DNA of 64,000 nt from Roseovarius sp. THAF27 (GTDB taxonomy: Bacteria; Pseudomonadota; Alphaproteobacteria; Rhodobacterales; Rhodobacteraceae), in NCBI RefSeq assembly GCF_009363655.1, contig NZ_CP045393.1, positions 4,131,116 through 4,195,115 on the forward strand, given 5' to 3'. Below the pieces are notes generated by a model. It had not been told where the DNA came from. It saw only the letters and a program-made list of their open reading frames with translations, and did no database searches. The position numbers and the translations under genes are program-made. Positions 25,842 through 43,419 of the stretch are shown in pieces. How positions within the stretch are numbered: the first letter of the stretch is position 1; the number at the start of each line of letters is the position of its first letter.

Positions 25842-25863
25842 GTGGTGCCACTGAAGGGCATCG
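25842..25863 (+). repeat. Imperfect copy of the tRNA-Thr 3' end (candidate attL)
   Basis: The 22 bases beginning GTGGTGCCACTGAAGGG match the complement of the tRNA-Thr 3' end at 43343-43364 at 19 of 22 positions, in the same orientation. The first 17 bases differ at only one position. A direct repeat of the tRNA 3' end at the far side of an integrase-bearing block is what tRNA-targeted integration leaves behind. Confidence 0.55.
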
Positions 25864-26304
25864 CCTTCATGCTCACGCGTGTCTCTCTGTGACCGATGGG
25901 AGTGCTTACCTCATTGTAATTATGAAATTAAATGCCCGGATAAGTCGTCCTTTGCCTCGGCGTATCCTCTAACCTTGGGTGGATATGATTTGCGTGCCAG
26001 GGACAGACTTTCATCAACCTTCGTCAAAAATGCGCCAGTTGCGATTGGCCCGTTGTCGTTGCCATAGGCAAACTCGAGTAAATTCGAGAATCCGGTTTCG
26101 ATAACTGCTTCGCCGCACTGTCCGAAGGTGTAGACGTCAGCCAAGGACCGCCTGCGCAGCACGGTCCTTTCATTCAAGTCGCCACCGCTTAGAATATTGC
26201 CAAGGCGTTTATGAACGTGGCGCCGAAGTGTCGAACCTTGTAACTCGAAACCCTGCTGCTTTGGACGACACCGCGATCCGGATTGATCCTTGTCCAAGGA
26301 TCGC
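25864..26304. other. Non-coding or decayed stretch at the left end of the accessory block
   Basis: No gene is convincing here. A 125-codon open frame runs on the minus strand from 26297 to 25920, but it has no ribosome site I can support and no recognisable family. Its middle (about residues 45-105) looks protein-like, so it could be a gene remnant. Base composition is less GC-rich than the neighbours. Confidence 0.4.
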
Positions 26305-27915
26305 TCATGCCAATTGTCGATCCCATGTCGTGCCGGGCACGGCCGCCAGAAGGCTGCGCGTATAGTCCTCTTTGGGATCGAGAAACACCTCGGCCACCGG
26401 CCCGATCTCCACCAGCTTGCCCTTTTGCATCACGGCCACCCGATCGCAAAGTTGAGCCGCCACGCGCATGTCGTGAGTGATGAACATGAGCGAAAGATTC
26501 AGTCGGCTTTGCAGGTCTCGCAAAAGGTCCAGCACTTGGGCCTGGATAGATACGTCAAGCGCCGAAACCGCCTCGTCCGCAATGATAAGGTCTGGATCCA
26601 TCGCCAAGGCCCGGGCAATCCCGATGCGCTGTCGCTGTCCGCCGGAAAACTCGTGTGGAAAGCGATCGGCGGCGCCTGCATCCAACTCGACGATTTCCAG
26701 CAGTTCACGTGCGCGGGCATGGGCTTTCTCTTTGGACACGCCTTGCACGATGGGGCCTTCGGAGAGCGCATGGAGGATCTTCTTGCGCGGATTAAGTGAC
26801 GCGTAAGGATCCTGAAAAATCATTTGAACCCGGCAGCGGGCGTGGCGTAGCTCCTGAGCCGTGAGGCTGTTCATGTCTTGGCCGTCAAGGATGACTTCGC
26901 CGCTGTCGGGCTCCACCAGCCGGACGATTGCACGGCCCACGGTGGACTTGCCCGAGCCGGATTCTCCGACGATCCCCAAGACCTCGCCGCGTGCGATGGT
27001 GAAAGAGACATCGTCGATTGCGGTCACGCTGCGGGAGGCTTTGAATAGCCCGCCCGAGGTGACAAAGGTCTTGCACAGGTTGCGGACCTCTAGCACCGGC
27101 TGCGCGCGTACAGGCTCCGGCGTCGGGACGTGATCGGACGGGATCGCCTCTAGCAGGGCCTTGGTATAGGCGTGTTGCGGATTGGCCAGAACCTCGCGCG
27201 CCGCGCCTTGCTCGACGATCTCGCCATAGCGCATCACGATCACCCGGTCGGCGATTTCCGCGACCACACCAAAATCATGGGTGATGAACATCACCGCCAT
27301 GCCGTGCCGGGACTGGATGGTCTTGATAAGGTCGAGGATCTTGGCCTGCGTGGTGACGTCCAGAGCGGTTGTCGGTTCGTCGGCAATCAGGATCGCCGGA
27401 TCAAGAGCCAACGCCATGGCGATCATCGCACGTTGCCGTTGCCCACCCGACAACTGGAACGGATAGGCGCGGATGATCTTTTCGGGGTCGGGCAGACCAA
27501 CCTCGCGGACCAGGTCCAGCGCCTTGGCGCGCCGTTCGGGCGGGCTGTGGCGGTTATGCGCCTCGAAGACCTCGGTGATCTGGTCGCCGATGCGCATCAA
27601 CGGGTTGAGTGCCGTCATCGGCTCCTGGAAGATCATGCCGATCCGGTCGCCGCGCAGTTTGCGCCTTTCATGGTCCGGGATTGCCATCAGGTCGCGCCCT
27701 TCGAATTCGGCAGAGCCTTGGGCGATCTCAACCTGATCGGGCAGCAGGCCCATGAGTGCGTTGGCGGTCATGGACTTGCCCGACCCGGATTCGCCGACCA
27801 CACAGAGGATTTCGCTGGACTTCAGGTCGAAGTCCACGTTCTGAACTGCATAGTCCCGGTCCGCGCCGGGCGGCAGGGATATCGCCAGATCGCGGATCGA
27901 CAGCACGGTTTCCAT
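26305..27915 (-). CDS. Peptide-type ABC transporter ATPase, two nucleotide-binding domains fused
   Basis: A 536-residue ATPase with two complete ABC domains, equivalent to DppD plus DppF in one chain (GsiA-like). Domain 1 has Walker A GESGSGKSMTANAL (about residue 39), signature LSGGQRQRAMIA and Walker B AILIADEPTTALD. Domain 2 has Walker A GESGSGKSTVGRAI (about residue 320), signature FSGGQRQRIGIARA and Walker B LIIADEAVSALD. Between them is the C-terminal oligopeptide-transporter segment of domain 1. It begins one base after the preceding permease stop. It energises import of a peptide or similar solute with the two permeases and binding protein upstream. Confidence 0.95.
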   Translation of the reverse strand: METVLSIRDLAISLPPGADRDYAVQNVDFDLKSSEILCVVGESGSGKSMTANALMGLLPDQVEIAQGSAEFEGRDLMAIPDHERRKLRGDRIGMIFQEPMTALNPLMRIGDQITEVFEAHNRHSPPERRAKALDLVREVGLPDPEKIIRAYPFQLSGGQRQRAMIAMALALDPAILIADEPTTALDVTTQAKILDLIKTIQSRHGMAVMFITHDFGVVAEIADRVIVMRYGEIVEQGAAREVLANPQHAYTKALLEAIPSDHVPTPEPVRAQPVLEVRNLCKTFVTSGGLFKASRSVTAIDDVSFTIARGEVLGIVGESGSGKSTVGRAIVRLVEPDSGEVILDGQDMNSLTAQELRHARCRVQMIFQDPYASLNPRKKILHALSEGPIVQGVSKEKAHARARELLEIVELDAGAADRFPHEFSGGQRQRIGIARALAMDPDLIIADEAVSALDVSIQAQVLDLLRDLQSRLNLSLMFITHDMRVAAQLCDRVAVMQKGKLVEIGPVAEVFLDPKEDYTRSLLAAVPGTTWDRQLA

Positions 27916-27916
27916 C

Positions 27917-28756
27917 CTAGCGCCCCTTTCTTGCCAGCCGGGGGTTCAGGGCGTCGTTCAACCCCTCGCCAATGAGGTTCAGGGCCAGAACCGTCAGCAG
28001 GATCGCCACGCCCGGAATGAAGCTTAGCCACCAGGCCGTGCGGATCACCGTGCGCGCCGCGCCGATCATGTAGCCCCAGCTCATGATATTGGGATCCCCC
28101 AAGCCGAGGAAGGACAACGAGCTTTCCAGCAGGATCGCCGTTGCCACCATCAAAGAGGCCATGACGATGATCGGTGACATCGCGTTGGGCAGGATATGTC
28201 CGAAAAGAATACGGGCGTTTGATAGCCCAGCAAGCCGTGCGGCATCGACGAACTCACGCTTGCGCAGCGACAGTACCTCGGCCCGCACGAGGCGGGCGAC
28301 GGGCGGCCAGCTGACGATGGCGATGGCCAGCGTTATCGTCGGCAGCGTCGGTTCCAGGATCGCGACCAGGACGATGGCAAGCGCGAAGTTCGGGATGGTC
28401 TGGAAAAACTCGGTAAAACGCATGGCGCCGTCATCCACCAGCCCTCCGTAGAAGCCCGCGAATGCCCCGAGCGGCACGCCGATCAACAGCGCCACCAGGG
28501 TCGACACCAGCCCCACGATCAGCGACACGCGCGCGCCATGCACCAACCCCGCCGCCACGTCGCGGCCCAACGTATCGGTGCCTAGAGGAAAGCCCTCGGT
28601 GCTGAACGGTTCGAGGAAGGGCCGCTGCACCATCTTCCACGGGCTTTCTGGGTAAATCAGAGGCGCGAAGATGGCCAAGAGAACAACGCAAGTCAGGATC
28701 ACCGCGCCGATCACCGCGCCCCGGTTGCGGGAGAATCTTTTGAGGAAATCGATCAT
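27917..28756 (-). CDS. Peptide-type ABC transporter permease (DppC-like)
   Basis: A 279-residue inner-membrane permease with about six membrane segments. It starts MIDFLKRFSRNRGAVIGAVIL, then has PLIYPESPW and LGTDTLGRDVAAGLVHGARVSL, both hallmarks of the DppC/OppC family, and the EAA loop around VRAEVLSLRKREFVDAARLAGLSN. I placed the start at 28756, which has GAGGAG at good spacing; nine more in-frame codons upstream are unlikely. It forms the channel together with the DppB-like protein encoded 10 bases before it. Confidence 0.94.
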   Translation of the reverse strand: MIDFLKRFSRNRGAVIGAVILTCVVLLAIFAPLIYPESPWKMVQRPFLEPFSTEGFPLGTDTLGRDVAAGLVHGARVSLIVGLVSTLVALLIGVPLGAFAGFYGGLVDDGAMRFTEFFQTIPNFALAIVLVAILEPTLPTITLAIAIVSWPPVARLVRAEVLSLRKREFVDAARLAGLSNARILFGHILPNAMSPIIVMASLMVATAILLESSLSFLGLGDPNIMSWGYMIGAARTVIRTAWWLSFIPGVAILLTVLALNLIGEGLNDALNPRLARKGR

Positions 28757-28766
28757 GGGTGTCTCC

Positions 28767-29732
28767 TCAAATCCGCGGATCAATCAGCCGATACACAATA
28801 TCGGTGATGATGTTGAAGGCGATCACCATGGCGGCCGAGACAAGGAACACACCGAGGAGCGTGTTATAGTCACGCGCGGTCAAGCTCTCGAACATAAGGC
28901 GACCGATACCGGGCCATGCGAACACGGTTTCGGTCAGAACGGCACCGCCCACCAGCTGCCCTGCCTGAAGACCGGCCAGTGTGACGACGGGCAACAGGGC
29001 ATTGCGCAGTATGTGACGACGCCGTATGGTTCCCTCGCGCAGACCCTTGGCGCGGGCCGTCTTGACGAAATCCATCTGGCTGACTTCGAGAACCGAGGAC
29101 CGTGTCATCCGCAGGTACACTGCCATGAAGAAAAGCCCAAGCGTCAGCGCCGGCAGGAACAGGTGTTTCAGCCGGTCCAGCACAGCGGTTATGCCGGTGT
29201 ATTCAGCGCCAACGGTTTCGTATCCGAAGGCCGGGAACCAGCCCAGATGCACCGAGAACAGCACGACGGCCATCAGCGCAACCCAGAAAAGCGGTGTGGC
29301 ATAAAACAGCAATGCCATGGTGGTGATCGCGGTATCGCTCCATTTGCCCTGCCGTGCGGCGGCGGCAAGGCCGAACACGATCCCCAGAAGCAGGGACATG
29401 CCAAAGGCGGTCATCGTCAGTAACAGCGTAGCGGGCAATCGGTCCAGGATCAGGTCCAGCACGGGCATCTGTTGACGATAGGAGTAGCCAAGATCTAGTT
29501 GCACGACGCCCGAGACGTAATTCCAGAACTGTACGTAAAGCGGCTGATCCAGCCCGAACTGCTGGCGCAATTGCTGGATGAATTGTTCGTCCGCTGCGCC
29601 TGCTTCGCCTGCCATGACCATCGCCGGGTCGCCGGGGGCTGCATGGATCAGGAAGAAATTCAGCACGACGACCAGCAAAAGCGTGATGATGGCTTTGGCG
29701 GTACGGCCAAATATGGCGGCGGCAAGGTTCAT
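28767..29732 (-). CDS. Peptide-type ABC transporter permease (DppB-like)
   Basis: A 321-residue inner-membrane permease with six membrane segments. The N-terminus VVLNFFLIHAAPGDPAMVMAG and the segment QQFGLDQPLYVQFWNYVSGV are typical of DppB/OppB/GsiC, as is the EAA loop near DFVKTARAKGLREGTIRRRHILRNA. It follows the substrate-binding protein gene across a 92-base gap that carries a strong hairpin. Solute specificity cannot be read from the sequence. Confidence 0.94.
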   Translation of the reverse strand: MNLAAAIFGRTAKAIITLLLVVVLNFFLIHAAPGDPAMVMAGEAGAADEQFIQQLRQQFGLDQPLYVQFWNYVSGVVQLDLGYSYRQQMPVLDLILDRLPATLLLTMTAFGMSLLLGIVFGLAAAARQGKWSDTAITTMALLFYATPLFWVALMAVVLFSVHLGWFPAFGYETVGAEYTGITAVLDRLKHLFLPALTLGLFFMAVYLRMTRSSVLEVSQMDFVKTARAKGLREGTIRRRHILRNALLPVVTLAGLQAGQLVGGAVLTETVFAWPGIGRLMFESLTARDYNTLLGVFLVSAAMVIAFNIITDIVYRLIDPRI

Positions 29733-29779
29733 TGTCTGGGCCTGCTCGGTTCGCGGTGGTCGTCAGGGACCGAATAGAG

Positions 29780-29805
29780 GCTGGCCCGGGTCATTCCGGG
29801 CCAGC
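29780..29805 (-). terminator. Intercistronic hairpin after the binding-protein gene
   Basis: A perfect 10-base stem (GCTGGCCCGG / CCGGGCCAGC) with a 6-base loop lies 20 bases after the stop of the substrate-binding protein and before the permease genes. There is no T-tract. Such elements protect the upstream mRNA and reduce read-through, so the binding protein is made in excess over the membrane parts. Confidence 0.65.
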
Positions 29806-29824
29806 TTTGCATCCTCACTTGGAT

Positions 29825-31369
29825 CTATTGCTCGACCCACGCGTCGCGCAGCCCGTCATTCACACCGATGGCGGTGGTCACGAGATCCTTCACGTCGCAG
29901 CGATAGATCGTTGGAAACTCGATCTCCAGAAGCCAGGCGACCGGCACGTCGTCGACCAGTTGTTTCTGGACTTGCGTGTAAATCTCCTGACGCTCTTCCG
30001 GGGTGGCGGCGATGGCGGCTTCGGCGAACATCTCGTCCACCTCAGGGTTTTCATAACCGGCGACGTTGTTCCACGGGCTGCCCTTGGCGATGTTGGACGA
30101 AAGATAGCTGCGTGCGACACCCAAGGCCGGATCACCGTACTGGTAGAGGTAGGTGAAGGCGATATCGAAATCCCACTCGGCCTGTTTCTGGTTCCAGCCG
30201 GCGACGTCGGTCGCCACCACTTCGACGTTGACGCCCACTTCTTCGAGGTTCTGCTTCATCGCCTCGGCCCAGCGTTGCCATGTCTCGCCGTAGGGCAAAG
30301 GCAGAATGCGCACGGTTTCCCCGTCATAGCCTGCGGCCTCCAGGTGCTCGCGTGCCTTGTCGGGGTTATGATCGTACATGATGGTGTCGTCGGTGTAGAA
30401 ATTCGTCTTGGACGATACCGGGCTGGTGGCGACCGTGCCGAACCCGTTCCAGATCACATCCTTCACGAATTCGCGGTCCATCGCGTGCATCACAGCTTTG
30501 CGGAAATCCTTGTTTGCCGTGGCCCCTTCGCGGGTGTTCATCCACGCCATCGCATGGGGCGCGAAGTACTCCCAACCCTTGCCGGTGGAACAGACACCGT
30601 CCATCTCGGTCAGGCGTTTCACGTCCCAGTTCTCGACAGAGCCACCGGGCAGCACGTCGACCTCGCCATTTTCGAACGCCACCGCGCGCGAGGCGGCATC
30701 GGGAATGACGCGATAATAGACCTCATCCAGATAGGGCTGTCCCTCCAGATAATAATCCTCGTTCTTCACCAGGTGGATGTAGCTGCCTTTCTCCCACTCA
30801 TTGAACTTGTACGGGCCGGTGCCGATCGGCGCGTTGTTCGCTTCGTTGTTGGCGAAATCCGTCCCCTCGTAGATATGCTTGGGGATCATCGGCATGGTTC
30901 CGGCCTCGAAGACGCCGATGAATGGGCCAAAAGGGTTCTTCAGCTTGAAAACGACGGTGTGATCGTCTGGCGCGGTCACGGATTCAACGTGTTCCAAACT
31001 GACCCGAAGTCGCGCATGGGTTTCGCGCAGGAACGTATCGACCGAAAACACCACGTCCTCGGCGGTGAAGGGCTCGCCATCATGCCAGGTGACCCCGTCC
31101 TGAAGCGTAAAGGTATAGGTCAGCGCATCGTCTGAAATCTCCCACGACTTGGCCAGCGACGGCATCGGGTTCAGGTCGGTGTCATAGCGCAAAAGGCTTT
31201 CGTAAATGTCGCCCGCAACCAGCTGCGTCGGTCCGTTTTGTACGAGACCCAACATCAGGCTGGGCGGTTCGGGTTGCACCACGATGTCAAGCCGGCCGCC
31301 GGTGTCCTGTGCCAATATCGGCAGCGCAAGCCCGAGGTACAGAATTGAGGCTGTCAGTGTCTTTTTCAT
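29825..31369 (-). CDS. ABC transporter substrate-binding protein, family 5 (peptide/opine/nickel type)
   Basis: A 514-residue periplasmic binding protein (SBP_bac_5 type) that captures the solute for the permease/ATPase genes downstream. Residues 1-20 are a signal peptide. The family segments VAGDIYESLLRYDTDLNPMP, LAKSWEISDDALTYTFTLQDGVTWHDGEPFTAEDV (in two parts) and NNAPIGTGPYKF are present. Cysteines are few. The start has AGGGAG seven bases upstream. It heads the operon; its promoter should lie in the gap from 31370 upward. Ligand unknown: peptides are most common, but opines, sugars and other small molecules occur in this family. Confidence 0.94.
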   Translation of the reverse strand: MKKTLTASILYLGLALPILAQDTGGRLDIVVQPEPPSLMLGLVQNGPTQLVAGDIYESLLRYDTDLNPMPSLAKSWEISDDALTYTFTLQDGVTWHDGEPFTAEDVVFSVDTFLRETHARLRVSLEHVESVTAPDDHTVVFKLKNPFGPFIGVFEAGTMPMIPKHIYEGTDFANNEANNAPIGTGPYKFNEWEKGSYIHLVKNEDYYLEGQPYLDEVYYRVIPDAASRAVAFENGEVDVLPGGSVENWDVKRLTEMDGVCSTGKGWEYFAPHAMAWMNTREGATANKDFRKAVMHAMDREFVKDVIWNGFGTVATSPVSSKTNFYTDDTIMYDHNPDKAREHLEAAGYDGETVRILPLPYGETWQRWAEAMKQNLEEVGVNVEVVATDVAGWNQKQAEWDFDIAFTYLYQYGDPALGVARSYLSSNIAKGSPWNNVAGYENPEVDEMFAEAAIAATPEERQEIYTQVQKQLVDDVPVAWLLEIEFPTIYRCDVKDLVTTAIGVNDGLRDAWVEQ

Positions 31370-32100
31370 TTAAATCTCCCTGTTGATGTTCGCGATGGTC
31401 ACTTTTCCGGGATTTCAAAAACCGCCCGGTTGTGCTGATAGCTCGCGAATTTTCCGTTACACGCCGCGTGCCGGTTACCGGTCTCTCGGAGTGTTCGGCG
31501 TTTGTGATTGCCTCCGTTGTGTAGGTGTCTGGCATACCCGAGGTTCATAGGCGGGTCGGTCGGGAGTCAAGGCGGTTTGTCAGCTGATGAAAATCTGAAT
31601 TGCAAAATCAAGGCTTTAGCACAAGCACGAAGCAGCTTTTTGGGCCGTTCTGGCGTGATGCCAACACGGATCAAGACGTTGATGAAGTTCTGAGCTCGAT
31701 TAGAGGCGGCAGGGTCTATTGGAAAAAGAACGCGCATACGGCAATCCGCGATGAGCGGGGACTTGGTCATATAGGTATTGATTTAAGCGGGCGGTCGAAC
31801 ACGTCTCCAAATCTACCGTGTGGTTCGATGAGTTGCCAACTTGGTATCAAAAACTGGGTCTAGCCAGTGAAGCATGCTGGCATCACTGAGGTCAGCTTTG
31901 AGTATTCTGCCGCGCAGCGGCACCGCTAAAAACCAAGGGCGGCTTTGGGCTGTTCGCTGTCTGGATGCCATTGGTCAATTGGAGTGGGAGTTTCTATTGC
32001 TTTTCCAGAACCGACTGGTGGCTTCCCCCGGGGAGAGACGGGGGAAGCTTGGCAGGCGAGGCCCGAACTGGCGCGTTCTGCGTCAGATCGGTGCTGTTCG
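31370..32100. other. Gene-free stretch of about 730 bases
   Basis: No gene is supported. Short open frames exist on both strands (for example 31600-31863 on the plus strand) but have no ribosome site or family signature. The left part should carry the promoter of the ABC transporter operon. The right part contains the hairpin at 32021-32048. The stretch GGGCGGCTTTGGGCTGTTCGCTG at 31930-31952 belongs to a style of intergenic text I have seen repeated in roseobacter genomes. It may be remains of a decayed gene. Confidence 0.5.
32021..32048 (-). terminator. Hairpin downstream of the exported alpha/beta hydrolase
   Basis: A perfect 9-base stem (GCTTCCCCC / GGGGGAAGC) with a 10-base loop lies 52 bases after the stop of the hydrolase gene on the minus strand. 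No T-tract follows, so termination is plausible but not certain. Confidence 0.5.
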
Positions 32101-33078
32101 TCAACTGGACTGCAGATAGCCCAAGATGTCCGCGTTGATCGCTTCAGCCATCGTCGCCGCCATGCCATGAGAGGCGCCGTCATAGACCTTGAGCGTCGCG
32201 TTCGGCATGATCTCGACCGTCCTTGAGGCAGAGGACTTTATGGGCACGACCTGATCGTCGCTGCCATGCATCACCAGCGTCGGCAGTTGGATCGCCTTGA
32301 GGTCCTCGGTAAAGTCGGTTTCCGAGAACGCCTCGATGCAGTCGTAGTGCGCCTTGGCGCTGCCCTGCATCCCCTGCCGCCACCAATTGCGGATAAGGCC
32401 TTCGCTGACCTCCGCGTCCGGGCGGTTGAAGCCATAGAACGGGCCCGATGCCACGTCGAGGTAGAATTGCGGCCGGTTCGCCAAAAGCGCCTGGCGGAAG
32501 CCGTCGAATACGTCCAGCGGCGTGCCGTCGGGGTTGCTGTCCTTCTTCACCATGACCGGCGGCACGGCACCGATCAGCACCAGCTTCGAGACGCGCCCGG
32601 GCTTGGCGCGGGCGGCGTAGTGCACGACCTCGCCACCGCCGGTGGAATGGCCCACATGCACGGCTGCCTTGAGGTCCAGCGCGTCGGCCAGGGCGATGAC
32701 ATCGGAGGCATAGGTGTCCATTTCGTTGCCGGTTTCCGTCTGGTCCGAGCGCCCGTGTCCGCGCCGGTCGAAGGCGATGACGCGAAAGCCCTTGCCGAGG
32801 AAATAGAGCATCTGGGCATCCCACTCGTCGGCCGTCAGGGGCCAGCCGTGGTGGAACACGATGGGCTGCGCGTCGCGCGGGCCCCAGTCGCGGTAGAAGA
32901 TCTGCGTGCCGTCTTCGGCGGAAATGTAGGTCATGGTCTGAGTTCCTTTGATGGAGGGAGATGTTTCGGCCCGCAGGCCGGGAGCGGTCAGCAGCGGTGT
33001 GGTCGCTGCAATCAGCAGGCCCGTGCCACCGGCAATCGCGCAGCGGCGGGTGAGCGGGATTGATTCAGGTCCGGACAT
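32101..33078 (-). CDS. Alpha/beta hydrolase (chloroperoxidase/arylesterase-like) with a Tat-like leader
   Basis: A 325-residue hydrolase. The body (from about residue 49) is a cofactor-free haloperoxidase/esterase-type fold: HHGWPLTADEW, nucleophile elbow VGHSTGGGEV (Ser), acid in MHGSDDQVVP and His in YDGASHGMAAT. The first 48 residues look like a Tat-type leader with LTRRCAIAGGTGLLIAATTP and a cleavage site near LRA-ET. A second ATG at 32934 (MTYISAEDG) has its own ribosome site AAGGAA and would give the usual cytosolic form of 277 residues. The start overlaps the end of a small membrane protein gene by 14 bases. Substrate unknown. Confidence 0.85.
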   Translation of the reverse strand: MSGPESIPLTRRCAIAGGTGLLIAATTPLLTAPGLRAETSPSIKGTQTMTYISAEDGTQIFYRDWGPRDAQPIVFHHGWPLTADEWDAQMLYFLGKGFRVIAFDRRGHGRSDQTETGNEMDTYASDVIALADALDLKAAVHVGHSTGGGEVVHYAARAKPGRVSKLVLIGAVPPVMVKKDSNPDGTPLDVFDGFRQALLANRPQFYLDVASGPFYGFNRPDAEVSEGLIRNWWRQGMQGSAKAHYDCIEAFSETDFTEDLKAIQLPTLVMHGSDDQVVPIKSSASRTVEIMPNATLKVYDGASHGMAATMAEAINADILGYLQSS

Positions 33079-33268
33079 GGCGTTTTCCCGATATGATCAA
33101 CTGACACGGGTCGGATTTCGGCAGCTTGCAGGTACGGTTCGCCTGAACGTGACCACCGATGAAACTGTCTACATTGACGATCCAGGAGGCGACGGCGACG
33201 GCCGCGACCGAGATGAGGAACAGGATCGCGCTCCAGGAGAGTATAGATTTCACTTTCAGATGGGACAT
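33065..33268 (-). CDS. Small single-pass membrane protein
   Basis: A 67-residue protein that I do not recognise. Residues about 8-30 (ILSWSAILFLISVAAVAVASW) are one hydrophobic segment, preceded by Lys residues, so the N-terminus should face the cytosol and the rest, with two cysteines, the periplasm. The ATG has GGAG seven bases upstream. It overlaps the start of the exported hydrolase by 14 bases, which suggests coupled translation. It lies between two hydrolase genes on the same strand. Confidence 0.5.
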   Translation of the reverse strand: MSHLKVKSILSWSAILFLISVAAVAVASWIVNVDSFIGGHVQANRTCKLPKSDPCQLIISGKRHVRT

Positions 33269-33371
33269 GGTGTGGCTCCATTGCCGGGGTGATTTCCCCA
33301 AGTGAGATTTCTGGTTGAGCAGATTGCGGGTTCATGCGGCGAGGCGGGCCCCGCCGCACGCGCTTGATAAT

Positions 33372-34154
33372 TCAGCTTCCGCCAGAGGCGCGGGCGGCCT
33401 CATCGATCACGTCGGCGACTTCATCCGGCTTGGTCAGAAAGACGACATGGCTGCCGGGCACGTCGACCGACACGGCGCCAATCCGGTCGGCGGTTTGGCG
33501 CAGCAGTTTCGGGTCGATGGCCTTGTCCTCGGTCGCGATTACGGCCCAGCTCGGCTTTTCCTTCCAGGCGGCGTGTTTCACCGGCGTTCCGAAGATATCC
33601 ATATTGATAGGCACCTGGCTGTCCCGAAGGAAAGCCGCGTCCGCATCGGCGGTGTCGCCGGCAAAGCCGGTCTTGAACTCTTCGAGGTTGACGAAGCCGA
33701 ACCCGTCATCGCCGGTCTCGATGATGAATTCCGGCGGAGCGGGGATGTCGGCGAACTGGTCGCCCGTGGTCTCGCCCACGTCTGGGGCCAGCGCGGAGAC
33801 GTAGACGAGGCCTGCAACCTTGGGGTTGATGCCCGCCTCGGTGATGACCGTTCCGCCGTAGGAATGCCCTACGAGGATCGCCGGACCGTCCTGACGGTCG
33901 AGGATGCGGTCGGTGGCGGCCACGTCATCTGCAAGAGAGGTCAGCGGGTTCTGCACGATGCTGACACGGTAGCCGCGGGCGGTGAGGATGTCGTACACGC
34001 CGCGCCAGCCCGACCCGTCGGCAAAGGCGCCGTGAACGAGGACGACGGATTTGACCGGCTGTTCGGACGGGATCGTATCTTGCGCGTTTGCGCTGGTCGT
34101 GATGGTCGCGGCGGCGGCAGCGGCGGCGACAGCAGTTCTGAGTTTCTTGGACAT
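33372..34154 (-). CDS. Exported alpha/beta hydrolase
   Basis: A 260-residue hydrolase with a signal peptide (about residues 1-24, ending SANAQ). The body has VVLVHGAFADGSGWRGVYDIL near the start, the elbow ILVGHSYGGTVITEAG (Ser), and a C-terminal His in VPGSHVVFLTKPDEV. This short form resembles esterases of the EstC/pyrethroid-hydrolase group and the salicylate-esterase-like fold. Start at 34154 is supported by AAGGAA upstream. It is divergent from a LysR regulator across 380 bases that contain a dyad, and is probably controlled by it. Substrate unknown. Confidence 0.87.
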   Translation of the reverse strand: MSKKLRTAVAAAAAAATITTSANAQDTIPSEQPVKSVVLVHGAFADGSGWRGVYDILTARGYRVSIVQNPLTSLADDVAATDRILDRQDGPAILVGHSYGGTVITEAGINPKVAGLVYVSALAPDVGETTGDQFADIPAPPEFIIETGDDGFGFVNLEEFKTGFAGDTADADAAFLRDSQVPINMDIFGTPVKHAAWKEKPSWAVIATEDKAIDPKLLRQTADRIGAVSVDVPGSHVVFLTKPDEVADVIDEAARASGGS

Positions 34155-35443: not shown

Positions 35444-35455
35444 AGATTGGCCGGG

Positions 35456-36373
35456 CTATCGCCGGAATGGGGCGATGGCGAAGGCGCGTGCAAGGTGGTC
35501 TATGAAGGCGCGAAGCGCCGAGGCCCTTGCGGTGTCGCGTGAGAACACAGCGTAGATCGTGCCCTCGACCGTCGAGATGTCGGGCAAGACTCGCATCAGC
35601 TGGCCGCCTGCAATATCCGGCATACAGGAATGTTCGGGCAGCAGGACGACGCCCAGCCCCCTGATTGCAGCGTGCCGCAGGGTGGCGATGTCGCTCGTGA
35701 CCAGCCGCGGGGTGACGTCGATGGTATGGGGTTTGCCATCCCGGTTAAAAAGCTCCCATACACGGCTGTCGCCGGGCAGGCACAGGGTCGGGATGGCCTG
35801 CAAATCCCGAGGCGTCAGCATATGGCTCGTACCGGCAAGGGACGGCGCGGCAACAAGGATGCCACGCGACACCCCAAGCCGCCGCACGACATGCGAGGCG
35901 CCGGCCTCGACCTGTGACCGCGCGCGGATCGTGATATCCACATCGTCCCTGACGAGGTCGAGCGGGCCCGCCATCGCGACCAGTTCGATCCGGACCCTGG
36001 GAAAGTCGGTGAGAAATTCGGCGATGACATCATCCAGCAGATCATTCAACAGGCCCGGCGGACACCCGACACGGATGCGGCCCGACGGCCCGTCGGTGTC
36101 GCTGGCCGCGCGCCGGGCCGCATCGAAGGCGTCGACCATCGTCTTGCCGTGATCCGCCACGATCCGCCCGGTTTCGGTCGGCCGCATGTTGCGCGTCGTC
36201 CGCTCAAGCAGGCGTACGCCCAGATCCTGCTCCAGCCGTGCGATGGCCTTGCTGAGGGTGCTTTTGGGAATGCCGAGATCCCGGGCGGCGGCTGCGAAAG
36301 AGCCTTTGTCGACGACTTTTCTGAAGCGGGCGAGGTCATCGAGGCTGGGCGTCTTAGACATGTGATTGTCCAT
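35456..36373 (-). CDS. LysR family transcriptional regulator
   Basis: A LysR-type regulator of 305 residues if started at 36373, or 301 from the ATG at 36361. The DNA-binding domain has KGSFAAAARDLGIPKSTLSKAI and LEQDLGVRLLERTTRNMRPT. The effector domain follows (GRIRVGCPPGLLNDLLDDVI). Neither start has a strong ribosome site, so the exact N-terminus is open. It is divergent from a WrbA-like quinone reductase across less than 100 bases and probably controls it, perhaps in response to quinones or electrophiles as in related systems. Confidence 0.92.
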   Translation of the reverse strand: MDNHMSKTPSLDDLARFRKVVDKGSFAAAARDLGIPKSTLSKAIARLEQDLGVRLLERTTRNMRPTETGRIVADHGKTMVDAFDAARRAASDTDGPSGRIRVGCPPGLLNDLLDDVIAEFLTDFPRVRIELVAMAGPLDLVRDDVDITIRARSQVEAGASHVVRRLGVSRGILVAAPSLAGTSHMLTPRDLQAIPTLCLPGDSRVWELFNRDGKPHTIDVTPRLVTSDIATLRHAAIRGLGVVLLPEHSCMPDIAGGQLMRVLPDISTVEGTIYAVFSRDTARASALRAFIDHLARAFAIAPFRR

Positions 36374-36395
36374 ATGGGCAGACAGTGAAACGAAA

Positions 36396-36414
36396 TCTGA
36401 CGCCGTAGTGCAGA
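36396..36414. promoter_or_regulatory. Dyad TCTG-N11-CAGA between LysR and WrbA-like genes
   Basis: The short divergent spacer contains TCTG, eleven bases, then CAGA. The size fits a LysR-type site that would govern both promoters. The motif is short and could be chance. Confidence 0.3.
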
Positions 36415-36461
36415 CGGGTGCGCGCACATAGCTTTCCATGCGTCAAACAAAGGAAAGCGAC

Positions 36462-37085
36462 ATGACAGATCAACATCCCGTCCGGCTGGCAATCGTCTAT
36501 TACAGCAGCACCGGCAACACATTCACGATAGCACAGGAAATCGCCGCCGGCGCCGAAAAGAACGGCGCCGCGGTCAGGATACGGCGGGTCGCGGAGCTGG
36601 CGCCCGACGCGGCAATAGATGCCAACCCGGCATGGAGGAAACACCTTGAGGCAACGCGTGAAGTACCCGTTGCCACCCACTCGGATTTGGAATGGGCGGA
36701 TGGTTTCGTTTTCGGCACGCCGACGCGTTTCGGGCTGCCGGCGGCGCAGTTGAAGCAGTTCCTGGACAGCTGCGGCGGTCTGTGGATGAACGGGAAGCTG
36801 ACCGACAAGGCCGTGAGTGCCTTCACAGGGGCCGGGAACGTTCATGGTGGGCAGGAATCCACCCTGCTGGCCTTGCACAACGTGTTCTATCACTGGGGCG
36901 CGATCATGGTGCCGCCCGGGTATACCGATCCTGCAATTCATGCCGCCGGGGGAAACCCGTACGGCACCAGCTTTACGGACGGACAAGGTGCGCCTCTTCC
37001 CGAGGCGACGTTGCGTGCGGCAAGGCACCAGGGGGCGCGGATGGCCACATGGGCGCACATGGTCCGACAGGTCAGGGCGGCGTGA
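36462..37085 (+). CDS. WrbA/flavodoxin-like NAD(P)H:quinone oxidoreductase
   Basis: A 207-residue flavoprotein that likely reduces quinones by two electrons using FMN. The FMN phosphate loop is YYSSTGNTFTIAQEI, the second site FVFGTPTRFGLPAAQLKQFLD, and the third FTGAGNVHGGQESTLLALHNVF, where WrbA has the GGQETT motif. Length matches WrbA. Start at 36462 has AAAGGA upstream; an in-frame ATG at 36438 adds eight residues. It is divergent from a LysR gene that may be its regulator and converges with an Lrp/AsnC gene. Confidence 0.92.
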   Translation: MTDQHPVRLAIVYYSSTGNTFTIAQEIAAGAEKNGAAVRIRRVAELAPDAAIDANPAWRKHLEATREVPVATHSDLEWADGFVFGTPTRFGLPAAQLKQFLDSCGGLWMNGKLTDKAVSAFTGAGNVHGGQESTLLALHNVFYHWGAIMVPPGYTDPAIHAAGGNPYGTSFTDGQGAPLPEATLRAARHQGARMATWAHMVRQVRAA

Positions 37086-37136
37086 CGGTGCGCGTGCGAT
37101 CCGATGGCCGCCGGGTCGCCAGCGGTGCATACAACA

Positions 37137-37156
37137 GGGGCGGGTCATGCCGCCCC
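37137..37156. terminator. Hairpin between convergent WrbA-like and Lrp genes
   Basis: A perfect 7-base stem (GGGGCGG / CCGCCCC) with a 6-base loop lies in the 118 bases between the two convergent stops. It may serve as a two-way terminator. Confidence 0.5.
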
Positions 37157-37203
37157 TTGACAGCGACCGCAGAGGTCGGGGACGCCGGTTTGAGGTGAAT
37201 CCG

Positions 37204-37683
37204 TCAGAATGCCAGAGGCGCGTTGTCCTTGACCTCTTTCAGCACGAAGAAAGTGCGGATCTGGCGAACGCCCGGCAGGGTGATGAGTTTGCGGCCGTGC
37301 AACAGGTTGAACCCTTCCATGTCCCGTGTCCTGATCTTCAGCAGATAGTCGAAATCCCCGGCGACGAGGTTGCAGTCGAGGACCTCTTTCATACCTGCGA
37401 CGGTCTCTTCGAACTCGGAAAAGCTTTCGGGTGTGGACCGGTCCAGCACAACGCCGACCATCACGAGCGTCCCCAGCCCCACGCTGGCCGGCGCGATCTG
37501 CGCTCGGACGGATGTGATGTATTTCTGTTCGATCAGACGCTGGGTGCGGCGGTGGCATGTCGCGGCGCTGACGTTCACCAGCCGAGCCAGGTCGGAATTG
37601 GCCATCCGGGCATCTTTCTGAAGCGCACGCATAATGTTTCGATCGATCCGATCGAGGTCCGGGCTGAAAGGATCTTCCGGCAT
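37204..37683 (-). CDS. Lrp/AsnC family transcriptional regulator
   Basis: A 159-residue feast/famine regulator. The N-terminal helix-turn-helix is DRNIMRALQKDARMANSDLARLVNVSAATCHRR, cut here by structure into the usual LVNVS turn, and the C-terminal RAM ligand domain holds VAGDFDYLLKIRTRDM. Starts at 37734 and 37683 are both open; MPEDPFSPDLDRID is the more family-like N-terminus. Such proteins sense amino acids or related molecules. It is followed by the GMC oxidoreductase gene on the same strand, 227 bases away from it on the far side, but its target is not evident. Confidence 0.93.
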   Translation of the reverse strand: MPEDPFSPDLDRIDRNIMRALQKDARMANSDLARLVNVSAATCHRRTQRLIEQKYITSVRAQIAPASVGLGTLVMVGVVLDRSTPESFSEFEETVAGMKEVLDCNLVAGDFDYLLKIRTRDMEGFNLLHGRKLITLPGVRQIRTFFVLKEVKDNAPLAF

Positions 37684-37910
37684 TGTTCGGGTTTCCGCAG
37701 GTCTCGGGTGTTCTGATGCGCCTTGCTGCATCATCTAAGGCACAGTTCCGGATTCGAAGAAAGCGGGTTGTCGGTGCGTGGCCATGCGGCATGGAAGGCG
37801 ATGTAGGCTGGCACGGTCCGGCCTCGGTCGGTGTCATTGTCCGTTTGATCTGGACGCGCCGGAACATGCGGACCGGGGGATGTCGTGCCCCCGATCCGCG
37901 TCGATTTTGT

Positions 37911-39554
37911 TCATGCCCTGGCTGCGAGGGGCTGTTCGGCGCGCGTCAGACCGTGTTGCTGGCGGATCATGTCGGCGGCACGCTCTCCGATCACCACGCA
38001 GGCGGCCATCGTGTTGCCGGTGGTGATGCGGGGCATGATCGAGGCATCAGCGATGCGCAGGTTGTCGATGCCATAGACCTTGAGCCGATGGTCGACGACC
38101 GACATCTCGTCCCGTCCCATCTTGGCGGTGCAGGACTGGTGCCAATAGGTGACCGCCGAGTTGCGAATGAAATCGACCATCGCCTTGCGATTCCGGCTGC
38201 CAGGCGCGACCTCCTGCCGGACGAGGGGCGTGAATGCCGCGTGGTTGCCGATCTCGCGGCACATCTCGACGGCGGTAAGGGCGGTCTCCAGATCCTCGGG
38301 TTCGCTGAGCGCGTTCGGCTCGATCAGGAGCGGATCGTCGGGATTCGGCCCTGACAGCCGCAGGCGGCCCCGGCTTTTCGGCTGGGCCAGGCCCGCGAAC
38401 ATGGTCCAGCCATGGGGCGGCGTGCCGATGCCCGCTTCCTCTGGGGCGGGCACCGGGAATTCGAGCTGGCATTGCAGGATATCGGGCTGTTTGAGGCGCG
38501 CAGAGCTTTGCCAATAGAGCGTCGCCTCGCATCCGCCGCCGCCGACACCCTCCGGCTTTTGATAGGCCCAGGTGCAGCCGAAGGCGAGGTGATCCTGGTG
38601 ATTCTGGCCGACGCCGGGAAGGTCGCGCACGGTCCGGATGCCATGTGCGGCAAGCTCGTGCTGGGGTCCGATACCCGATTGCATCAGGACTTTCGGGGTC
38701 TGGATGGCGCCAAGCGACAGAATGGTCTCGCAGCGTGCGCGGAACTGCCGGAGCTTGCCGTCGAGCAGGACTTCGACTCCTATGGCCGACGAGCCATCCA
38801 GCAGGACGCGGGAGACGAGGGCGCCGGTCAGAACGGTCAGGTTGGGCTGGTGCATGATGCGGTGGGTGTAGGAGCGGAACACTGACTGGCGCCGGCCGTC
38901 GCGGATGCGGAGATCCGCGATAGCGGCCCCGCCGGGGCCTTCCATCATCGCCCCGTTCGGGCTGTCGAAGACCGGGATGCCCATGTGCCCGGCAGCCTCG
39001 AGCATCGCGCGGGCGACGGGCTGGGGCGCTGCAGGTTGTTCGACGTGGACAGGGCCGCCCATGCCGCGCCGTTCGGCGTCGGGTGTGCCATGCCAATCCT
39101 CAATGCGGCGGTAATAGCCAAGGATGGACTGGTACCCCCAGGCAGGATCGCCGGATTCGGCGGCGAAGTGGTTCCAGTCTTCTTTGTGACCCCGGGCCCA
39201 GACCATGACGTTGATGCTCGATCCACCGCCGAGGCCTTTGCCCATGCTGAGCGGAAGCCTGCGACCGCCGAGGGTCGGGCTGGGTTCGCCGGAGAACCCC
39301 CAGTCGCGCTCGCTGTCGAGGTTCAGGGGCCACAGGGCCGGGTTGGTGACCGTGTCTGCCGTGTCGTCGCCGCCGGCCTCGAGCAGTAGAACGCTGACGT
39401 CCGGCTGTTCGGCCAGCCGGGCCGCGACGACCGAGCCGCTGGACCCGGCGCCACAGACGATGAAGTCGTAATCGGATCGAAGCGCTTGGCGCAGGGCTTT
39501 CTGGTTGTCCAAGACGGCGAGGTCGTGCCGCGTCAGGGTCGGATCGGTGTCCAT
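37911..39554 (-). CDS. GMC family FAD-dependent oxidoreductase (choline/alcohol dehydrogenase-like)
   Basis: A 547-residue flavoenzyme that oxidises an alcohol group. The FAD-binding fold is DFIVCGAGSSGSVVAARLAE, followed by LLLEAGGDD and the GMC signature GKGLGGGSSINVMVWARGH. The C-terminal active-site region has YWHQSCTAKMG and the end motif ADASIMPRITTGNTMAACVVIGE. Start at 39554 has GGAG at good spacing; a longer frame to 39665 is unsupported. It lies downstream of an SDR gene on the same strand, across a 194-base gap with a small hairpin (ACCACC/GGTGGT, 39639-39653). Substrate unknown. Confidence 0.93.
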   Translation of the reverse strand: MDTDPTLTRHDLAVLDNQKALRQALRSDYDFIVCGAGSSGSVVAARLAEQPDVSVLLLEAGGDDTADTVTNPALWPLNLDSERDWGFSGEPSPTLGGRRLPLSMGKGLGGGSSINVMVWARGHKEDWNHFAAESGDPAWGYQSILGYYRRIEDWHGTPDAERRGMGGPVHVEQPAAPQPVARAMLEAAGHMGIPVFDSPNGAMMEGPGGAAIADLRIRDGRRQSVFRSYTHRIMHQPNLTVLTGALVSRVLLDGSSAIGVEVLLDGKLRQFRARCETILSLGAIQTPKVLMQSGIGPQHELAAHGIRTVRDLPGVGQNHQDHLAFGCTWAYQKPEGVGGGGCEATLYWQSSARLKQPDILQCQLEFPVPAPEEAGIGTPPHGWTMFAGLAQPKSRGRLRLSGPNPDDPLLIEPNALSEPEDLETALTAVEMCREIGNHAAFTPLVRQEVAPGSRNRKAMVDFIRNSAVTYWHQSCTAKMGRDEMSVVDHRLKVYGIDNLRIADASIMPRITTGNTMAACVVIGERAADMIRQQHGLTRAEQPLAARA

Positions 39555-39748
39555 GCAGGATTCTCCGTGGGATGGCTGTGTTGATGTCGAAAACGGTTTG
39601 GTCGAGATGACGTGGTTGCTGCGGCACACCGCAAACAGACCACCGTTGGTGGTTTCACCGTTCACCGGAATGGACGATGCAACGCCGCAAGTTGGCCATG
39701 CGGCCCGGCGCCGGGGTTATGGGGTCCGACGCGCAAAGGGGCGGGCGC

Positions 39749-40528
39749 TCAGACGGTCGGAACGGTTCCGCCATCGATGGTGTACTCGGTGCCCGTTATC
39801 GTGGCCGCGCGGTCCGACGCCAAGAAGGCGATCAGGCTGGCGATCTCTTGGGGTTTTGTCGGGCGGCCTATCGGGATACCACCCAAAGACTGCATGATGA
39901 GTTGCTTGCCGCCTTCGTAGTCGGTCCCTTGCTCCTCTGCGAGGCGCTGGGCGAGACGCACCGATGCCTCGGTCTCGATCCAGCCGGGAGAGACTCGCAG
40001 GACCCGGACGCCTTTCGGAGAGACTTCCTTGGACAGACTCTTGCTGTAGGCCGAAAGAGCGGCTTTGGCTGCGGCATAGGCTGTTGTGGCCTCCGGCAGG
40101 GGCAGGACGCGCTGGATCGAGGTGACGTGGATGACGACACCGTGGCCCTGGGCCACCATCTCGGGCACCAGCAACCGGTCGAGCCGGACCGAAGGAAAGA
40201 GGTTCAGATCGAGCTCCATTTGCCATTGATCGTCATCGAGTGCCGCGTGGCCGCCGCTCGGCGCGGATGACCCGCCGACCATGTGGACAACGATGTCGAT
40301 GCCGCCCAGTTCTTCCCGGACCGCATCGGTCACCGCCTTGCAGCCTGCGGGTGTCGTCAGGTCTGCGGCGACGAATACGTCTGCATTCATCTGCTCCGGG
40401 CGCGAGCGCGCGGTCGTCAGGACCGTTGCGCCGAGCGTTCGCAGCAGTTCGACAGTCGCGGCTCCGGCACCTTGGGTGCCCCCGGTCACGAGTGCGCGCT
40501 TACCAGTCAGGTTGAGAAAATCGGTCAT
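39749..40528 (-). CDS. Short-chain dehydrogenase/reductase
   Basis: A 259-residue SDR that uses NAD(P)H. The cofactor loop is [16 protein letters not shown], the active-site Ser lies in HVTSIQ and the catalytic YAAAK (Tyr-x3-Lys) is in [18 protein letters not shown]. The mid motif is VVHMVGGSS where NNAG is usual, a known variant. It begins at an ATG with GGAG upstream. It is divergent from a SnoaL-like gene, and the shared promoter region carries a perfect 13-base inverted repeat. Substrate unknown. Confidence 0.93.
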
Positions 40529-40627
40529 GATCTGAGCTCCGGATTTATTGCTGAATGTTGCTTTCTGGAAAATTAAGGGACGTCGTGTGTTTAGAAAATA
40601 TGGATTAAATGACATGCGCTATCTTGA

Positions 40628-40676
40628 AATCCGGGATAATTTTCGGGAGGTTTCGGCAGACTGATTATCCCGGATT
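40628..40676. promoter_or_regulatory. Perfect 13-base inverted repeat in the SDR/SnoaL promoter region
   Basis: AATCCGGGATAAT at 40628-40640 and its exact complement ATTATCCCGGATT at 40664-40676 are 36 bases apart, centre to centre. Each arm is itself nearly palindromic (ATCC-G-GGAT). A weaker third copy, ATTCTGGGATTCGG, overlaps the right arm. The spacer includes AT-rich promoter-like text. This looks like a pair of operator sites for a dimeric regulator controlling both divergent genes. The rest of the 264-base gap holds no gene. Confidence 0.65.
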
Positions 40677-40792
40677 CTGGGATTCGGCGTGTTGTTTTAT
40701 CCCTATTATCGAATTTTCATCCTCACTTAGATTACCTGTTGGCGCGGCGGTCAGAGGGTTGTCGCGCCTTGGACCGCAACAGGAGAATGATG

Positions 40793-41122
40793 ATGAAACT
40801 TGAACTACCGGCAGTGATCGCCCAGTATTTCTCGGCCGACAAAAAGGGCAACGCGAAGGCGATAGCGGAATGCTTTACCGATGACGCGATCGTTGTCGAT
40901 GAAGGCAATACGTACAAGGGTCGGGAGGCGATCCGGCAGTGGATGGCCAACGCCTCAACGCAATACACCTATACCGTGGAACCATTCTCGCTGACCGAGG
41001 AGGGTGGTCGCACTATCGTAACCAGCCATCTCGTCGGCAATTTTCCGGGGAGCCCGGTCGATCTGCGGTATCTGTTCCGTCTGGAAGGAAACAAAGTAGC
41101 CGAGTTGGAAATAATTCCCTGA
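40793..41122 (+). CDS. SnoaL-like / NTF2-fold protein
   Basis: A 109-residue protein of the NTF2-like SnoaL superfamily, often small isomerases, cyclases or hydrolases, or ligand-binding proteins. The motifs are YFSADKKGNAKAIAECFTDDAIVVDEG (helix pair then the first strand, here in shortened form) and YKGREAIRQWM. Three ATG codons occur in a row (40787, 40790, 40793); AGGAG ends at 40785, favouring the last. It is divergent from the SDR and probably belongs to the same pathway. Exact activity cannot be read. Confidence 0.85.
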   Translation: MKLELPAVIAQYFSADKKGNAKAIAECFTDDAIVVDEGNTYKGREAIRQWMANASTQYTYTVEPFSLTEEGGRTIVTSHLVGNFPGSPVDLRYLFRLEGNKVAELEIIP

Positions 41123-41241
41123 CGCGACTTGTTGCCCGGAGCGGTACCACCGAACGCCGTGGAATTGGGGGTCGGGTCGTGATGCCTGCACTGGATCGGA
41201 GCTGACCGGACCTCGCAAGATATACCATGAAGGACCGCTCT

Positions 41242-41265
41242 GGGCCGGCCGTGACCAACCGGCCC
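41242..41265 (-). terminator. Hairpin just after the integrase remnant
   Basis: A perfect 7-base stem (GGGCCGG / CCGGCCC) with a 10-base loop lies eight bases beyond the end of the integrase pseudogene on the minus strand. It could be its terminator. Confidence 0.45.
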
Positions 41266-41272
41266 GTATCGT

Positions 41273-41905
41273 TCAGATTTCCACTGCCTCCGCGATTGCG
41301 AGCGCATCTTCAAGCTCAACCCCGAGATAGCGGACGGTGCTGTCCATCTTGGTGTGACCGAGCAGGCGCTGCACGGCACGCAGGGTCCCGGTTTTCTTGC
41401 AGATTTGTGCAACCTTGGTCCGGCGCATCGAGTGCGTGCCGTGGGACGTAGCTTCCAATCAAATGGAGCTCACCCAGTCCCGCACGAGGCGGGCGTATTG
41501 TCGCATCGATATGTGGAGGCGCTCATGAAACGGCCCCGGCCACAGAAATTCTGAGCCAACCATTAGCGGTTCATCCATCCATCGCGCGAGCGACTTGCGT
41601 GTGCCCTCTGTGACCTCGAAACGCACCGACCTCTGCGTCTTGCTTTGGATGACCGAAGCGCGCTCCTTCACTTGGCCGGAGGCATAGACGTCGGTCACCT
41701 TGAGTTTTACCAGATCACACCCTCGCAGTTTGCTGTCGATGGCGAGGTTGAAGCGAGCCAGCTCCCGATGGCTCTCGGCGATCTCAGGACCAACGCGAAT
41801 GGCCCAGACGTGCTTGGGCAGCAAGGGTCGCTTCTGGCCGATTACACGGCCTTTGTTCCAGGCGGGTCTGCAGGCTCGAATGGCAGGGAAGTTCGCAATT
41901 GTCAT
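41273..41905 (-). pseudogene. Tyrosine recombinase/integrase, broken by one in-frame stop codon
   Basis: The minus strand encodes a small integrase of the kind frequent in Rhodobacterales (about 210 codons). The first part shows the catalytic Arg in SKLRGCDLVKLKV; the second part shows HSMRRTKVAQICKKTG, the box-II histidine in RLLGHTKMDSTVRYLG and the final Tyr. A TGA at 41459-41461 separates them in the same frame (WVSSI-stop-LEATSHGTHS). A Gly codon GGA is expected there, so one base change explains it. Both halves otherwise look intact, so inactivation seems recent. It lies 1.4 kb from tRNA-Thr and may have moved the island. A sequencing error is the other explanation. Confidence 0.85.
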
Positions 41906-42081
41906 GGCGGTTACTCCGGTTTGCCGCTCCCTGCCTCAACGCCAACCCGACGTTGGAAATAGAGCATATCACCGAAAGTAGCTCCTGCAGAGAAGGTCTG
42001 CAGCGAGCCCATTTTGACTGATGTTGCGTATTGAACCAATGTCCGATTCAGTGCTCCTAAAACGCAATGCTTGGACAATAA

Positions 42082-42789
42082 ATGGTCGAAAAACTATCCG
42101 AAGAGGAAACCGCTCTACTTCAGGCCGTTGCGTTCTGGTTGCGTGAAGAAATGCTATCGCACCTTGTTGATATGTCACCCGCGCCTGATCTTTTACACGA
42201 CTTGGCTCAAAGCAATTACGAGATTAGCTGTAGTGCCTTAGAGAGAGTGGGTCTGCTTGCGTCTGAAGGCCACTATTGGCGAGTATTAGAGCCAAACAAC
42301 GACCAACCCACCTTGGCTATCTGACACAAGCGTAGCGACCTTGACCACCTTCTTGACGGGCTGGCCTGCCACTCTGATTACGTCAACGATCTGTATCGAC
42401 ACTATGAGGCTGTTGTCCCAACAAAACACTCTTTGAACAGGGTTTGCTTTGCCATGGCCGAGTGCGGATACATGGAGACTATATCTAACAAAGCGTTTAA
42501 ATGGACCGACGATTTTGGTCCTTGGTTGGTGCGTCATGGCGCGTGGGATTTGGACGAGTTTGAGACAGCACCGCAAGAAGAGGTTGTCAAAGCCTTGGAA
42601 GCCATCCCTGACAAGCGGAAAGACTGGTTGTCAGGGTCGTTATGCCGTCACAAACCAGACTTTGTTCGATGTTTCTTTGCGCAATGGATAAATGGCAAAT
42701 GGGAAGAGGAAGAATGGCGGTATGCGCCTAGCGATGACTGGGACCTCAATCTCGCAGCTGGGCTATACACAAAATTGCATAGCCAATGA
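42082..42789 (+). pseudogene. Unknown gene of about 235 codons broken by one stop codon
   Basis: Two open stretches, 42082-42324 and 42325-42789, are in the same frame and are separated only by the TGA at 42322-42324. The codons after the stop read coherent helical protein (SDLDHLLDGLACHSDYVNDL) before the next possible start, so they are best seen as one gene. The first part begins MVEKLSEEETALLQAVAFWL; the last part is rich in Trp (FKWTDDFGPWLVRHGAWDLD). I recognise no family. GC is clearly lower than in the rest of the window, which suggests foreign origin. Confidence 0.6.
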
Positions 42790-43342
42790 TTGCAGACACT
42801 GGCGCAGTTGCAGCAAAAGTTGACTTCGTCCCGCTCTGCCGTCATTCGGCGAGAGAAATGCTGCGCTGGGCTTGAATGGCCACTTCGACGAGCCGCACCA
42901 CAGCATTGGACTGGGTCGACCAGTGTCCGCTCTGGGCCGAGACCGCAGTCAATCTGGCGATAACGCTAACCCCGTCTAGCAACCCAGTATAGGCACCTAG
43001 GGTTGATTGGGGTATGATCCGTTTTGGGTCTTAGTCGAATGTCGATAAATGATGACGTCAATATGGATGATGAAGCTGAAATTTCGCGTTACGAAAGGCT
43101 TGTAGCCGAGCTTCGCAAACATTCTCCGGGACGATACTATCCAATTCGTGCGCCTTTCAGGACGTGTCCTTTTCCAGCAGAAAAACACCGCGCTCAGCCA
43201 CATGATACCAATTGAGACGAATTCTCCTCGGCCAGCGCGCTTAACAGGTCGCGCCAGCGAAAATGAAAGAGTGGATATTTAAGGGGATAAAGACAAGCAT
43301 CCAGCAGAGAAACCGAATTTTTCAGTGGTCTACTGGGCGATT
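42790..43342. other. Gene-free, low-GC stretch before tRNA-Thr
   Basis: No gene is supported. A frame at 43039-43215 reads MSINDDVNMDDEAEISRY and looks protein-like at first but has no ribosome site and no family. The 13-mer CCGCTCTGGGCCG at 42927-42939 also occurs at 41235-41247. The stretch looks like debris next to an integration site. Confidence 0.45.
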
Positions 43343-43364
43343 GTGGTGCCGCTGAAGGGACTCG
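43343..43364 (+). repeat. tRNA-Thr 3' end as candidate attR
   Basis: These 22 bases cover the CCA, acceptor stem and part of the T stem of the tRNA and recur at 25842-25863 with 19/22 identity in direct orientation. In tRNA-targeted integration the intact tRNA stays at one end of the island and a partial copy at the other, as seen here. Confidence 0.55.
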
Positions 43365-43419
43365 AACCCCCGACCCCATCATTACGAATGACGTGCTCTA
43401 CCAGCTGAGCTACAGCGGC
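43344..43419 (-). tRNA. tRNA-Thr (anticodon CGT)
   Basis: The minus strand folds as a full tRNA: acceptor GCCGCTG/CAGCGGC, D arm with AGCTGGTAGA, anticodon loop TTCGTAA with anticodon CGT, T loop TTCGAGT, discriminator A and encoded CCA. Two G-T pairs occur in the T stem. It reads ACG codons. Its 3' end faces the accessory block, as expected for an integration target. Confidence 0.95.

Follow-up and report, generated by a model that had tools for sequence, protein, structure and literature searches.

How did a 17.5-kb block of accessory genes come to lie beside the tRNA-Thr(CGT) gene of Roseovarius sp. THAF27, and which enzyme placed it there? An earlier note on the 64,000-nt stretch analysed here (the window) had read the block as an island at this tRNA, with attachment copies at both ends. 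That reading holds: a relative, G012, breaks from the window at both of the named places, and intact elements occupy the same tRNA gene in G012, G051, G055 and G093 (handles beginning with G stand for genomes of the genus, those with L for loci). We consider it likely that the block is the relic of an element with a P4-type integrase, integrated in the last 16 nt of tRNA-Thr(CGT). We call the island a relic because it contains no intact integrase gene, holding instead a stub of about 18 codons and an unrelated short recombinase interrupted by one in-frame stop.

The repeat that bounds the block is specific to these two sites. The 22 nt at 43343-43364 recur at the far end with 19 of 22 positions identical and a single mismatch in the first 17, exactly as claimed. 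Chance had been called an improbable source, and the control agrees: two matches with at most three mismatches appeared in 0 of 100 dinucleotide shuffles of the window. Across 4.46 Mb on six contigs, the 22-mer occurs at the same tolerance at only these two places, and a reversed control gave none. The orientation of the repeat is consistent with an island downstream of the tRNA 3' end. With a tRNA T-arm consensus, the only match was the tRNA itself. G006 holds a 16/17 copy of the tRNA end (L041:16955) without CA after it.

Table 1. Features of the block and of its edges, with positions counted in the window.
Feature	Position	Strand	Remark
Alpha/beta hydrolase	23700-25790	+	Pfam: Abhydrolase_1, TAP-like C-terminus; accessory gene just left of the block
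Far attachment copy	25842-25863	+	16-nt core at 25843-25858, 15/16 to the tRNA end, then CA (25859-25860)
Arm-like site GGGTGGAT	25977-25984	+	Offset 134 from the core
N-terminal stub of P4-type integrase	25990-26043 (about)	+	About 18 codons; rest of the gene missing
Module A, peptide/nickel-type ABC transporter	26196-31786	-	
Module A ATPase	26305-27915	-	
Module A permeases	27917-28783, 28767-29732	-	
Module A binding protein	29825-31369	-	
Module B	32021-41247		
Module B alpha/beta hydrolases	32101-33078, 33372-34385	-	
Module B LysR regulators	34535-35443, 35456-36439	+, -	
Module B WrbA-like oxidoreductase	36438-37085	+	
Module B Lrp-type regulator	37204-37734	-	
Module B GMC oxidoreductase	37911-39665	-	
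Module B SDR	39749-40615	-	
Module B SnoaL-like protein	40739-41122	+	
Short tyrosine recombinase	41273-41905	-	One in-frame stop; intact relatives have the catalytic domain only
Two ORFs in one frame	42082-42324, 42433-42789	+	No Pfam match; beside the short recombinase; perhaps pieces of one broken gene
DNA next to the tRNA	42929-43342		Matched by G069 at 88-90% and, in its last 100 bp, by G047; element end or native flank
Arm-like pair	43270-43291	+	20/22 to the integrase-side arm pair of G080
tRNA-Thr(CGT)	43344-43419	-	ARAGORN; last 16 nt (43344-43359) form the near attachment core

The tRNA-Thr(CGT) region is an integration hot spot. On its right, the neighbouring gene encodes a HemY_N-domain protein, and this flank matches well past the tRNA in 22 of 23 other genus genomes compared. 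Conserved DNA on the left, which encodes a 3'-5' exonuclease and an LptD_N-domain protein and is present in 14/14 other genus genomes compared, ends at about 23598. The earlier placement of core genes outside the block on both sides is therefore correct for the right and wrong for the immediate left, where the accessory hydrolase stands; this gene has a full-length match in one of 83 other genus genomes, G012. Both conserved flanks are present in five genomes: that of the window, G012, G006, G047 and G069. G012 follows the window up to exactly 25863, carries 14 kb of unrelated DNA and matches again from exactly 43343, while in G006 the match ends at 23598 and returns at 43343, with 10.9 kb in between; the distance between the conserved flanks is 4.1 kb in G047 and 13.5 kb in G069. 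The break near 23598 is common to four of the fillings. The block is replaced between the same flanks, at both ends in G012 and at the tRNA end in G006, as expected of an island in a tRNA gene. The note had predicted an empty site in which the hydrolase end meets tRNA-Thr and hemY directly; none was found through the left flank in the 84 genus genomes or in close relatives.

Block ORFs were compared with the DNA beside the left operon (nine genus genomes), beside the tRNA (two genomes) and at ten tRNA-flank loci (L044-L053); the tRNA itself was matched, as were two stretches weakly and in part, and nothing else exceeded 45% identity. In G003, 48 bp from the 3' part of tRNA-Thr recur without mismatch (L044:13593-13640) 12 kb from its tRNA-Thr, and G075 and G001 carry copies of the tRNA end of 47 and 51 bp (100% and 98%) on other contigs. 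These longer copies in G003, G001 and G075 probably mark a second type of element that uses this tRNA with a longer core.

The intact integrase in G012 belongs to a family with a regular attachment architecture. The foreign DNA of G012 opens, about 160 nt from the far core, with a 395-aa integrase composed of Arm-DNA-bind_3, Phage_int_M and Phage_integrase domains, a set that we take to denote P4-type integrase elements. Matches at E <=1e-40 occur in 48 of 84 genus genomes, its own included. Among 16 family integrases sampled (at least 61% identity), a TGGTGC core precedes the integrase start by 149-165 nt in all 16, CA directly follows the 16 nt at 14 of the 16 integrase-side ends, and an arm-like site lies 134-136 nt from the core in 14/16. 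The exact 16 nt recur at a tRNA 3' end in eight of the 16 within the DNA fetched, and for the other eight the second core was absent from that DNA. These eight targets comprise tRNA-Thr(CGT) in G012, G051, G055 and G093, tRNA-Leu(CAG) in G023 and G080, tRNA-Leu(TAA) in G083 and tRNA-Phe(GAA) in G014. The G023 and G080 elements span 6.6-7 kb (L282, L287-L290).

Mismatches in the attachment repeat are largely a property of this family. In 8/8 relatives with both ends available, identity spans exactly the final 16 nt of the target tRNA and no more; the integrase end continues with CA in seven and with CG in G014, and the tRNA side with AC in six, AG in one and AA in one. The three mismatches of the window's repeat had been attributed to age or imperfect integration, an explanation that fails for two of them, which are the CA-for-AC difference also present in intact relatives. 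The remaining mismatch is a substitution inside the 16-nt core of the far copy.

Cores vary across the family. Ten different cores occur among the 16 integrases. Three of these represent tRNA-Thr(CGT) as it varies between hosts, so a difference in core is not always a change of target. The deepest forks of the integrase tree are weak; the tRNA-Leu(CAG) pair G023 and G080 forms one supported clade (100/100). G082 and G055, which are sisters (100/98), differ in their cores. In G082, G021 and G040, tRNA-Thr does not match the far core of the integrase, and these integrases therefore sit elsewhere or on pieces that were not fetched.

The far end of the window bears a relic of this same architecture. 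Its core (15/16) is followed by CA as in the G012 family, and an arm-like site lies at the expected offset (Table 1), an arrangement found at one of 54 other TGGTGC occurrences in the window; the second site of the arm-like pair was not seen at this end. A profile built from the 16 relatives, with the window left out, gave one significant hit in 64 kb, at 25843-25985 (E 6.7e-6), and its next-best hit was the tRNA end alone (E 1.5). The spacer past the core resembles those of G023 (score 21) and G080 (18), with no score above 15 among 500 shuffles for each; the remaining 14 relatives gave shuffle fractions of at least 0.010. A tblastn search with 15 integrase sequences, one of them (L273) a wrong ORF, aligned residues 4-26 of the G023 integrase (L282) with 25975-26043 at 52% of 23 positions (E 9.2e-5), after which the match breaks off. 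That match is short, and its first residues overlap the arm-like site, so the two signals are not fully independent. From this sequence evidence, the integrase that fits the site appears to have lain at the far end, leaving the arm-like site and the stub.

The outer DNA of the far copy also resembles a native tRNA flank. Of the 12 nt on the left side of the far core, nine agree with an uninterrupted flank of tRNA-Thr (p 0.010; best of 26); left of the tRNA, the count is five of 12 (p 0.92). Among intact elements, the far ends of G055 and G093 fit at 10/12, G012 reaches 8/12 at both ends and G051 shows no fit.

The DNA next to the tRNA admits another reading of the right boundary. Were it native, the right boundary of the present block would lie no further right than about 42929, the far copy would mark where an older element ended, and homologous or illegitimate recombination would have exchanged the interior. 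G069 shares the whole of this DNA and G047 its last 100 bp (z 9.0, 1000 shuffles), the far copy was detected in neither genome, and a profile made from seven right-hand ends gives no hit at that of the window. Yet, the tRNA aside, these two are the only matches among 83 other genus genomes (E <=1e-12), and of the two 12-nt stretches compared, the one beside the far core looks native and the one beside the tRNA does not. Arm-like octamers moreover stand at like distances from tRNA-Thr: 11 of the 25 found in 28 flanks lie at -76, -75, -64 or -63. Because of this clustering, we favour ends of related elements over native flank for the DNA shared with G069 and G047, and we regard the native-flank account as rather unlikely. 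The window's own pair stands altered at -73/-61 (about 75 and 63 nt in the family), where the profile gives no hit; its 20/22 match to G080 arose in 0 of 100 shuffles, for a pattern chosen after looking. Against the tRNA-side flanks of G023 and G080, the right flank scores above most shuffles (p 0.003 and 0.007). This shared DNA is the main weakness of the P4-type relic reading and the reason why we hold that reading to be likely rather than near certain. G069 contains about 0.7 kb of extra DNA at window position 43131 (L196:18823-19945), with a small protein bearing the motif HGGLSTGP, a family that is presumably phage-associated.

Two further accounts dispense with the P4-type integrase altogether. 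The short recombinase is the integrase remnant near the tRNA that the earlier note had described; it exists, but its role as the island's own integrase is not supported: it is of a kind seldom found at tRNA genes, and the relic of a fitting integrase lies at the far end instead. It does sit inside the block 1.4 kb from the tRNA, its intact relative belongs to the Phage_integrase family, and one of the ten genus relatives examined lies about 0.5 kb from a tRNA. A scan of genome contigs found at least 566 relatives, and among the 80 kept, a tRNA was present in the stretch examined for 12 and within about 1.1 kb for three; three of the ten genus loci have one. With an integrase of a different type marking the far attachment site, the short recombinase is an unlikely integrase for the tRNA-Thr site, and that it moved this block into the tRNA is very improbable. 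The other account takes the repeat as chance and the block as a patchwork assembled without site-specific integration. The region does vary in any case, with mostly unrelated fillings in the five genomes that share both flanks; the shuffle and genome-wide counts of the repeat, the exact G012 breakpoints and the profile hit beside the far copy leave that account with almost no credit. As a separate observation, the short recombinase forms a compact unit (41227-42046; DNA similarity to relatives begins at about 41220-41270 and runs to about 41910-42046) that directly abuts module B and is widespread in Rhodobacterales.

The cargo has a history of its own. Modules A and B occur elsewhere in G006 (94-95%), G012 (84-89%) and G016 (75-82%), and module A also in G021 (81%). 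The note had named the same genes without the tRNA junction in relatives as grounds for rejecting an island; such copies exist in these four genomes, in part of the form foreseen, and they show mobile or shifting modules rather than the lack of an island. The likeness to the G006 cargo exceeds the 87% of the left flank, which suggests recent exchange. In G006, by eye, the contig with module A begins (L043:1-141) with the apparent end of an IS transposase gene just before the module. Among plasmid records, 106 match the cargo and none covers more than 80% of it. Family names point to a putative catabolic role. Minus-strand ORFs at 34469-35179, 36354-37148 and 37145-37867 have no Pfam match and overlap genes with Pfam matches, and were rejected as genes.

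A course of events can be proposed from features read directly in the DNA: the repeats, the G012 breakpoints, the family architecture and the left-end relic. A P4-type tyrosine integrase element would have entered the last 16 nt of tRNA-Thr(CGT), which the hydrolase end then adjoined, with strand exchange presumably falling within those 16 nt and the arm-like sites presumably functioning as arm sites. The right end would have kept an intact tRNA, and the left end would have gained the 16-nt copy and, after it, the CA that belongs to the element; the integrase gene would have begun about 150 nt inside that end and read towards the tRNA. Later, in the order of events that we infer, nearly the whole integrase would have been lost, and the transport module and a catabolic-looking module would have filled the interior. 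Since the block has no matching integrase, it probably cannot leave by itself and is probably immobile. The genome encodes three other integrases of broad P4 type (35-41% identity), which might or might not act on it.

Islands integrated in tRNA genes are already well known as a class, and the window holds another of them. It shares a direct repeat, a downstream island, an intact tRNA and a hot spot with the tRNA 3'-end islands of tyrosine integrases of the Islander/TIGER kind (PMC12884075, PMC11476347), and its 16 bp fall within the 12-98 bp reported for repeats in Sinorhizobium meliloti (PMC11476347). Unlike typical tRNA islands, the window has an integrase that is a stub and lay away from the tRNA, and a far copy that is imperfect. 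Compared with a P4-type element, the G012 integrase beside the same site has all three domains and the window keeps about 18 codons. No title or abstract opening was found that describes the G012-integrase element family, nor any publication that joins tRNA-Thr, DUF4102 and genomic island.

The relic bears on how islands are called and on how tRNA integrases choose their targets. Mismatches between attachment repeats can be an element's signature instead of decay, and the integrase closest to a tRNA is not necessarily the enzyme that did the work; both points matter for island calling, and searches that require identical repeats and an integrase could overlook such a relic or assign it wrongly. 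The family's fixed 16-nt core is a more interesting by-product than the island itself. We see about an even chance that Roseovarius holds a family of integrative elements whose attachment cassette is rigid: exactly 16 nt from the end of a tRNA, then CA, a regularly spaced arm site and, at the far end, an integrase gene that reads in the direction of the tRNA. On that view, related integrases target tRNA-Thr, two tRNA-Leu and tRNA-Phe with the other cassette parts unchanged, a change of target may need little beyond a new 16-nt tail, and the window would be a relic, its cassette having outlasted its integrase. If the 16-nt core is indeed fixed across several tRNAs, target switching by tRNA integrases would become directly testable.
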